NCBI GenBank assembly: GCA_949293335.1
Contig: CASFDA010000013.1
Span: forward strand, 62,001 to 126,000
Source of the DNA: an uncultured Spirochaetales bacterium
GTDB lineage: Bacteria; Spirochaetota; Spirochaetia; Sphaerochaetales; Sphaerochaetaceae
DNA length: 64,000 nucleotides
Direction: 5' to 3'
Within the stretch, counting starts at the first letter, position 1; every line of letters starts with the position of its first letter. Made by a program: the position numbers and the translations under genes. Positions 1 through 2,603 of the stretch are shown piece by piece. The notes under the pieces were generated by a model that had not been told where the DNA came from, searched no databases, and saw only the letters and a program-made list of their open reading frames with translations.

Positions 1-1
1 A

Positions 2-145
2 ATTTTCAGGGTAAAGGAGAAGAATATAGATATCGGTAGCAATAAGAAGGGACCTTATGTGAAAATAAAGTTTCCGCAAGAAAAATTCTCGATAAAACTC
101 AACAGGCAGGAATTAGTACTCGAGTTTCGCATGGAATTTCCCTAA
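2..145 (+). CDS. C-terminal fragment of an unidentified protein
   Basis: An open frame enters from the left edge and runs about 47 codons to a TAA at 143-145. The visible tail is rich in Lys and Phe and alternates hydrophobic and charged residues (GPYVKIKF, KFSIKL, LVLEFRMEFP), which looks like beta-strand protein rather than noise. It converges on the MurB-like gene and overlaps its 3' end by about 33 bases. No family is recognised from so short a piece, and it could still be a chance open frame. Confidence 0.4.
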   Translation: MFRVKEKNIDIGSNKKGPYVKIKFPQEKFSIKLNRQELVLEFRMEFP

Positions 146-1021
146 TAGCGATACAGAGAGGCGCAGGCGTATCCCTGTCAGTTTCTCCACCTCATCTCTG
201 ACATCTGAAATAAGGGAGATTACATCGTTAGAGCTTGCGTTCATGCTGGCGAATATGCAGTTGCTCTGGAACGATGAGAACTCGGCGTTGTATCCGAAAT
301 CTTTATCGAGATGGCAAGCCTTTATTATGTCTTTTGCACTCATCCCTTCCGGATCCTTGAAGACCTGTCCGATAAAGTTTGCAGTAGGCGGGATGAACAT
401 CAGTTCGACGAATTTCTCTTTCTTGAGCCGCGCTTCAGCCGTTCTTTTCGATGGCTCCAGCCTCAGCGTGACAGAAAGCACGATCTCATCGTCTGAAATA
501 GGACTTGTCTGATGTCCGAACAGGTCGATGTAGTCGGGACGGCGGTGAATCTTCCCATCTTTTGTCATGTAATCAGAGTAGAAATGGTAATCTGAAAGGT
601 TTTTCCCGTTTGCGCTTGCATTTACTTTCAATGCTGCTGCTATCGTACCAGGAATGCCTCCAAGCTCCTCAAGTCCTACGAGGTTATGTTCAATCGCTGT
701 GTTTATTATCCCGTCAAGGCTCTCTCCCGATGCGGCTGTGATGAGGTTTCCTTTGATCGTTATCCCCTTCATCTTCTTCATCGAGATCAAGAGGCCCTCA
801 ATTCCCTCGTCAGAGATTATTACATGCGTACCACTTCCGAGCAGACTTGTACTGAGGTTCATCTTGTAGGCCTTTTCCAGTGCCTCGATGAGCATTTCAC
901 TGCTTTCTGGTTCAACAAAGTATTCTGCCTTTCCTTTTGTCTTGAAGAAAGAAAGTCCGGACAGGTTCTTGTCTCTCTCGAAGTTGACTTTGCTGTTTCC
1001 GACTCTGACGAGAATTTCCAT
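113..1021 (-). CDS. murB: MurB-family (UDP-N-acetylenolpyruvoylglucosamine reductase) homologue lacking catalytic residues
   Basis: The 302-residue protein has the MurB layout. An N-terminal FAD-binding half carries LLGSGTHVIISDEG (about 60-73) and a GGIPGTIAAAL segment (121-131) in place of the usual GGIPGTVGGA. The C-terminal half carries VFKDPEG (220-226) and the final LxxxVxLLG strand. In working MurB a Ser of the GSxF motif and a late Glu act in catalysis, and a YRxS motif binds substrate. Here these positions read GQVF (Gln219), LSVSLLG (Ser289) and HQTS (170-173). It is therefore clearly homologous but probably not an active reductase, or has a changed chemistry. The Met codon at 1021 is preferred because it opens the conserved fold; an upstream TTG at 1072 is also in frame. 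No strong ribosome site is seen. Confidence 0.8.
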   Translation of the reverse strand: MEILVRVGNSKVNFERDKNLSGLSFFKTKGKAEYFVEPESSEMLIEALEKAYKMNLSTSLLGSGTHVIISDEGIEGLLISMKKMKGITIKGNLITAASGESLDGIINTAIEHNLVGLEELGGIPGTIAAALKVNASANGKNLSDYHFYSDYMTKDGKIHRRPDYIDLFGHQTSPISDDEIVLSVTLRLEPSKRTAEARLKKEKFVELMFIPPTANFIGQVFKDPEGMSAKDIIKACHLDKDFGYNAEFSSFQSNCIFASMNASSNDVISLISDVRDEVEKLTGIRLRLSVSLLGKFHAKLEY

Positions 1022-1199
1022 ATTGGTAATAATAGACGAGTCTTGATTTGCAAACAATGGAAAACATAGCAAATGAAGTTAGCAATGGTATTTTTGCTTT
1101 AAGTACAATACCCTTGCATAAGGTTCCCTGAATTGCTGGCCTTTAATGACAAGGCAACGCTTAAGTGTTATTTTACCATATATAGATAAGGTATTTGAA

Positions 1200-2603
1200 A
1201 TGAGAATATACAATACGATGACAAGGAAGGTTGAGGAATTCGTTCCAATTGAGGAAAAAAAGGTTGGAATGTATTGCTGCGGACCTACTGTCTACAATTA
1301 TGCGCATATAGGGAATTTGAGAACATACATCTTTGAGGATCTTCTCCGCAGAACTCTTGAGCATGAGGGTTACAAAGTCAAGCACGTGATGAACATCACG
1401 GATGTCGGTCATCTTACGGGTGATGGAGATGATGGAGAGGACAAGCTTGAAAAGAGGGGAAGGGAGACCGGAAAGAGCGTATGGGAGATTGCGGACTTCT
1501 ACACAAAGGCATTTTTCCTAGATGAGGAAAGACTTAACATCAAGAGGCCTACAGTCGTTTGCAAGGCAACCGATCATATAAAGGAGATGATTGCTCTTGT
1601 AGAGACGCTCGAGAAGAAAGGGCATACATATATCGCAAATGGCAATGTTTATTTCTCGATAGACACAATTGATGATTACGGAAAGCTTGCCCGTCTCAAT
1701 CTTGATGAGCTGAAGGAAGGGGCGAGAATTGAAGTAGATAGCGGAAAAAAGAATCCTAAGGACTTTGTTCTCTGGTTCACAAACAGCAAGTTCAAGAATC
1801 AGGCGATGGTATGGCCAAGTCCGTGGGGAGTGGGTTATCCAGGATGGCATCTTGAGTGCAGTGCCATGAGCATGAAATACCTTGGTGCACATTTTGATAT
1901 CCATTGCGGCGGGATAGATGCTATTCCAGTGCATCATACGAATGAAATTGCCCAGAGCGAGGCTGCAAATGGAATCAAAAACTGGGTAAATTACTGGTGC
2001 CACGGTGAATTCCTGCTCAATGACAGCGGAAAAATGAGCAAGAGTTCAGGGGAGTTCATGACCCTTTCTCTCTTGATTGACAAAGGATATGATCCGCTTG
2101 ACTGGAGATATTTCTGCCTTACAGGACACTATAGAAGCCAGCTCAGGTTCAGTTATGAATCTCTTGATAGTGCCCGTAGTGCACGTCTTTCCCTCGTAAA
2201 GAAGGTCGCTGAGATGCTCGGTTCTGGAAAAGCTGCAGATACTCTTTCTGAAAAAGGTGCGGGCTATGAGAATGAATTCTTCTCTTATATGACGAATGAT
2301 CTCAGGGCACCTCAGGCTCTCGCATCTCTCTGGTCGATGCTCAAGGATAGTTCATTGAAGGATAATGAAAAAGTCAGGATCCTGTACGACGCTGATGAGA
2401 TTCTCGGTCTGCGGCTCAGTGAGATCGAACCTCTTAAAGAGGAGAAGGTCGGAGGCGAAGAGGAAGAGAAACTCCTACAGGAAAGAGCTGATGCGAAGAA
2501 GAACAAAGATTACAAGAGGGCTGATGAGATCAGGGCTATTCTTCTTGAACGTGGATACAAAGTCGTGGACACTCCGAAGGGAAGTGTTCTTGAGCATGTG
2601 TAA
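1200..2603 (+). CDS. cysS: Cysteinyl-tRNA synthetase
   Basis: Cytoplasmic class I synthetase that charges tRNA-Cys. The 467-residue product starts MRIYNTMT and has the expected length. Zinc-binding Cys lies in YCCGPTVY (25-32), with CSAMS (near 219) and the HCGGID plus HHTNE block (near 234-245). The HIGH motif is HIGN (36-39) and KMSKS is intact (near 277). The C-terminus has the usual helical tRNA-binding tail ending in a region that recalls RADEIR. An upstream in-frame ATG at 1146 would add 18 residues not typical of the family, so 1200 is chosen; the ribosome site is weak. The ECF sigma gene follows after 27 bases and may be co-transcribed. Confidence 0.97.
   Translation: MRIYNTMTRKVEEFVPIEEKKVGMYCCGPTVYNYAHIGNLRTYIFEDLLRRTLEHEGYKVKHVMNITDVGHLTGDGDDGEDKLEKRGRETGKSVWEIADFYTKAFFLDEERLNIKRPTVVCKATDHIKEMIALVETLEKKGHTYIANGNVYFSIDTIDDYGKLARLNLDELKEGARIEVDSGKKNPKDFVLWFTNSKFKNQAMVWPSPWGVGYPGWHLECSAMSMKYLGAHFDIHCGGIDAIPVHHTNEIAQSEAANGIKNWVNYWCHGEFLLNDSGKMSKSSGEFMTLSLLIDKGYDPLDWRYFCLTGHYRSQLRFSYESLDSARSARLSLVKKVAEMLGSGKAADTLSEKGAGYENEFFSYMTNDLRAPQALASLWSMLKDSSLKDNEKVRILYDADEILGLRLSEIEPLKEEKVGGEEEEKLLQERADAKKNKDYKRADEIRAILLERGYKVVDTPKGSVLEHV

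Follow-up and report, generated by a model that had tools for sequence, protein, structure and literature searches.

Does a homologue of MurB that has lost its catalytic residues still serve peptidoglycan synthesis, is it a gene in decay, or has it been put to another use? The question is raised by a murB-like gene near one edge of the 64,000-nucleotide stretch of DNA analysed here (hereafter "the window"), from an uncultured member of the Sphaerochaetaceae. The gene lies on the minus strand at positions 113–1021 (ATG start at 1021, stop codon at 113–115) and encodes 302 amino acids, which upholds the full-length open frame described in a reading made from the sequence alone. That reading also called the fold plainly MurB, and here too domain and structure matches agree with it. 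A PCMH-type FAD_binding_4 domain (residues 33–160, window 542–925, minus strand; PF01565, 4.7e-15) and a MurB_C domain (residues 215–292, window 146–379, minus strand; PF02873, 2.6e-11) both exceed their Pfam cut-offs, and the AlphaFold2 model (pLDDT 89) matches MurB structures with Z-scores of 29–33, the next fold family reaching only about 16. The agreement with S. aureus and L. monocytogenes MurB (1HSK and 3TX1) covers the full-length fold (Z 33, rmsd 2.5–2.8 Å, 26–27% identity), whereas VAO/PCMH flavoproteins such as DprE1, D-lactate dehydrogenase and EncM, which share the superfamily FAD domain, give a far weaker match (Z about 15). The NCBIfam MurB equivalogs match the protein below their curated cut-offs (161 vs. 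259 bits and 110 vs. 144.5 bits). A second, intact murB, which the same reading had proposed to look for, was not found in a profile search of the source genome, where this protein gave the only MurB_C match.

The sequence-only reading had drawn on Sphaerochaeta; the source genome comes not from that genus itself but from one that includes Candidatus Ornithospirochaeta (hereafter g1) and whose walled sister genus is referred to as g21. In g1 the murB-like gene is found between cysS and an outer-membrane-protein-like (OMP-like) gene, followed by ackA. In the window, the Cys-tRNA synthetase gene cysS is the divergent neighbour (positions 1146–2603, plus strand, likely start at 1200) and marks the ancestral murB locus, while the 3' end of the OMP-like gene (positions 1–145, plus strand), which has no Pfam match and is placed likewise in g21 and most relatives, shares its last 33 nt with the murB-like gene in a tail-to-tail overlap (window 113–145). 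Most relatives, as well as g21, show similar overlaps of 9–18 nt, and in two relatives there is none. The order cysS, murB, OMP-like gene is kept in g21 (its cysS being recognised only via the antisense frame), and cysS also adjoins murB in a class-level relative. In a MurB tree the g1 sequences fall into a single, long-stemmed clade (100/100); named homologues come from uncultured Spirochaetales/Spirochaetaceae and Candidatus Ornithospirochaeta stercoripullorum, and Candidatus Aphodenecus pullistercoris groups with g21. By both locus and tree, the murB-like gene is a vertically inherited murB orthologue.

The loss of catalytic residues was evaluated by aligning the protein with MurB of E. coli, S. 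aureus, L. monocytogenes and about 110 others, and by tabulating residues in about 170 sequences (some loci entered twice), 36 of them from g1. In the alignment, E. coli R159, S229 and E325 correspond to Q171, Q219 and S289: His170-Gln171 replaces the Tyr-Arg of the YRxS motif (E. coli Y158-R159), which reads HQTS (window 509–514, minus strand), Gln219 replaces the catalytic Ser (365–367, minus strand), and Ser289 replaces the catalytic Glu (155–157, minus strand; Ser in 92% of g1). No Ser or Cys and no Glu could be placed at the catalytic positions of this protein. The substitutions named in the sequence-only reading (Gln219, Ser289 and HQTS) are therefore real, save for the small correction that Gln in HQTS is numbered 171, and they extend to the whole genus. 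The triad is missing from every g1 homologue tabulated, the isolated exception being one sequence (G055) with Arg at the first position and neither Ser nor Glu at the other two. Within g1 the Arg position usually carries Gln and the Glu position Ser, and the Ser position varies freely (Q, E, N, A, C, I, K, M, L). Other members of the family retain Arg or Lys (one His), Ser or Cys, and Glu at these positions, and g21 retains Arg, Cys/Ser and Glu; since every g1 homologue lacks the triad while the rest of the family keeps it, neither chance nor sequencing error explains its loss. Incompleteness or contamination of the assembly is likewise ruled out, as the source genome (1.92 Mb) has a completeness of 99.09% and a contamination of 0.45%, and dozens of species are in the same condition.

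Among the columns conserved in canonical MurB, g1 retains the Gly/Pro framework of the FAD domain and has lost Asn51, Tyr158, Arg159, Ser229, Glu325 and a C-domain His (position 252 here). About 12 residues are newly invariant in the genus, including H66, E100, H112, D150, R160, R198, K201, E202 and P211. His66 (window 824–826, minus strand; 36/36 in g1) takes the place of the GxGSN-loop Asn of canonical MurB (N51 in E. coli). In VAO-family enzymes the covalent His of this loop sits one position earlier (GxGH), and a covalent His-FAD bond through His66 was considered and dropped on that ground. Overall, the alignments show that the protein cannot act through the known MurB mechanism. Outside the spirochaetes, MurB-like proteins on three Planctomycetota contigs (L112, L146, L153) have the Arg and lack the catalytic Glu, L112 also lacking Ser/Cys; they may be paralogues, or MurB may have been altered there independently.

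The pathway around MurB was assessed from gene content, so that wall-lessness is used here in a genomic sense, most genomes being metagenome-assembled. Two profile searches found no transpeptidase domain in g1 (0/40 and 0/43 genomes), and no MraY-family protein was found in the 43 g1 genomes. Both searches work, since in the same order-level sample 53 genomes of other genera gave exactly one transpeptidase and 54 gave MraY above the cut-off. MurA was absent from the sampled g1 genomes: the single EPSP-family match per genome was ruled out as MurA, all 40 sequences scoring closer to E. coli AroA. One genome (G014:C148, L154) encodes a second AroA-type protein, adjoining genes for a LacI-type regulator and a TRAP-like solute-binding protein. 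Most g1 genomes have one Mur_ligase_M match, vs. mostly 4–6 in walled genera, and Mur_ligase_C agrees. These matches were ruled out as MurC–F, the sole match of the source genome being FolC and the extras examined in some other g1 genomes being PgsB-like or MurD-like. MurC, MurE and MurF were undetectable in g1, with the proviso that strongly diverged copies may escape, Mur_ligase_M having missed even the MurD-like protein of the source genome. A weak tblastn match to MurG in the window is a chance one inside a frame resembling trigger factor. Separately, the PgsB-like (poly-gamma-glutamate synthase) ligase occurs at five g1 loci (L155, L156, L157, L160, L161), four of which carry a secreted C69-peptidase-like gene nearby. 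With neither MurA upstream nor MraY and recognisable MurC/E/F downstream, the peptidoglycan pathway of g1 is essentially absent rather than relaxed.

The walled members of the family differ. Sphaerochaeta and Bullifex ("Sphaerochaetaceae" by GTDB-Tk) are reported to possess murA–G, murJ and mraY and to lack PBP1a, 2 and C, and murotetrapeptides were detected in them (PMC7738495). The statement that Sphaerochaeta lack penicillin-binding proteins, on which the sequence-only reading had leaned, holds for these three. As a blanket claim it is contradicted by the one transpeptidase reported for S. coccoides (PMC4423922) and by the exactly one transpeptidase-domain protein that most walled family members carry here.

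Selection on the gene is strong. Pairwise dN/dS among g1 copies, a comparison that had been proposed from the sequence alone, is 0.02–0.10 (saturated-dS pairs yield no ratio, among them the source genome and its nearest relative), whereas the catalytic MurB of walled genera gives 0.05–0.11. In two close g1 pairs the ratio is 0.03 and 0.08 vs. 0.05 and 0.03 for cysS. With an intact frame and purifying selection of this strength the gene is not a pseudogene, and with its triad and pathway gone it is not a MurB reductase either.

A second Mur protein has followed a similar course. The source genome carries a MurD-like gene outside the window (G000:C10:75892-77166; L229:8893-10167, minus strand), and MurD-like proteins are present in 36 of the 43 g1 genomes, this one included, and in the wall-less genera g26, g30, g31 and g38. 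They are orthologues of MurD (UDP-MurNAc-L-Ala:D-Glu ligase), judged from their best family match (TIGR01087, 201 bits, slightly below the cut-off of 212), from their best PDB matches, which are MurD with an agreeing fold, and from their position next to metG, as for murD in walled genera. Unlike catalytic MurD, they have lost the catalytic DH...DK segment, which is present in 19/19 walled copies and absent from the 16/16 wall-less copies examined. The P-loop is kept in most wall-less copies and damaged or lost in some, so that catalytic DH...K segment and intact P-loop do not occur together in any of them. The dN/dS of the MurD-like gene is about 0.04 (two pairs). To our reading, this retention of MurD without its catalytic motif is a new observation.

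Across the 43 g1 genomes, 35 have both the MurB-like and the MurD-like protein, six have neither and two are mismatched. The Fisher test (7.9e-6) overstates independence, since co-loss may be one or a few events: in an AroA tree the genomes without both genes cluster closely, and one to three losses suffice. This co-occurrence is suggestive, though not proof, of a functional link. The two genes are non-adjacent (cysS locus vs. metG locus), and the MurD-like protein is kept without MurB in other wall-less genera; the two are therefore not strictly dependent on each other. A single-gene tree of metG places g1 beside walled g21 (100/99), apart from the other wall-less genera, and a topology forced to unite every wall-less genus is rejected (p-AU 0.0015). 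Because this tree separates them, the family seems to have lost peptidoglycan on two or more occasions; each wall-less lineage seems to have retained a disabled MurD, and g1 alone MurB.

What, then, does the protein do? We consider it probable that MurB outlived its pathway in g1 and took on a different function, plausibly alongside the MurD-like protein. In g1, where peptidoglycan synthesis is lost, the murB orthologue lacks the Arg/Ser/Glu machinery for reducing UDP-GlcNAc-enolpyruvate, a substrate left without a detectable source because MurA is gone. Selection has retained the fold and added new invariant residues, so the protein probably does something else. A ligand of the nucleotide type, FAD and/or something UDP-like, may still be bound, and the protein may serve as a partner or sensor, either non-catalytic or with a different catalysis; most plausibly it would form a single functional unit with the MurD-like protein. 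Recruitment to another job had already been suggested from the sequence, and genus-wide triad loss, strong purifying selection and the new invariant residues speak for it. It is tempting to speculate further, if only tentatively, that MurB-like and MurD-like proteins form a conserved functional unit whose second role (e.g., in division or envelope regulation) was already present beside wall synthesis in walled ancestors and was uncovered by peptidoglycan loss at least twice in the family; we regard this broader version as rather doubtful.

The main rival is that the protein is an active FAD oxidoreductase on a different substrate, with H66, H112, D150, R160, R198, K201 and E202 making up an active site newly built into the ancestral flavin scaffold. 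The retained fold and FAD domain, the many genus-specific invariant polar residues and the strong purifying selection would all fit. However, proton donor and orienting residues are gone, the old proton-donor position varies freely where a new catalytic residue should be conserved, and the change of the GxGSN Asn to His makes FAD binding itself only putative; we hold this possible, but on the unlikely side. A UDP-MurNAc-forming reductase working through substitute residues is very improbable: the MurB fold and the FAD-domain Gly/Pro framework are kept, but there is no MurA to supply the substrate, the users of the product are undetectable (MurC/E/F) or absent (MraY), and in E. coli MurB the S229A change by itself (the mutant of PDB 1uxy) severely impairs the reaction. 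Hardly any weight attaches to a decaying relic, or pseudogene in progress, after peptidoglycan loss. The lost pathway and triad, and the absence of the gene from some g1 members, are what such decay would leave, but dN/dS is low, frames are full-length wherever the gene is present, and new invariant residues and a confidently modelled fold accompany them. The related suggestion of a relic of a relaxed peptidoglycan pathway fails as well, since dN/dS is no higher than in catalytic MurB and the pathway is essentially absent. That the frame is conserved only through its OMP-like neighbour can be dismissed, since the convergent 3' overlap, although found in most relatives (9–33 nt), touches only the last few codons, is missing from two relatives, and cannot account for conservation and low dN/dS along the whole gene.

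The MurB-like protein differs in several ways from the known systems closest to it. It shares with MurB the FAD-domain framework and the family's murB locus, but differs in the replaced R/S/E triad, YRxS Tyr and GxGSN Asn, in its sub-threshold equivalog scores, and in its setting, a genus without MurA, MraY or transpeptidase and with undetectable MurC/E/F. Loss of the Mur genes is what one expects once a bacterium has dispensed with peptidoglycan. In Mollicutes, the standard wall-less bacteria, peptidoglycan synthesis is lost as in g1, and murB, murD and the remaining Mur genes are reported to be lost with it (PMC3313985), whereas g1 keeps both, catalytically crippled. The open-access literature yielded nothing relevant on a MurB pseudoenzyme or on Mur genes retained without peptidoglycan.

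A large genus of uncultured gut spirochaetes thus maintains murB and murD without active sites under selection as strong as that on working enzymes. This suggests that Mur proteins have a function other than the synthesis of wall precursors, and provides a natural set of separation-of-function variants for finding such a function. It also adds a genome-based record of a peptidoglycan-less group to a family in which the wall is unusual even where it is present (Sphaerochaeta, Bullifex).
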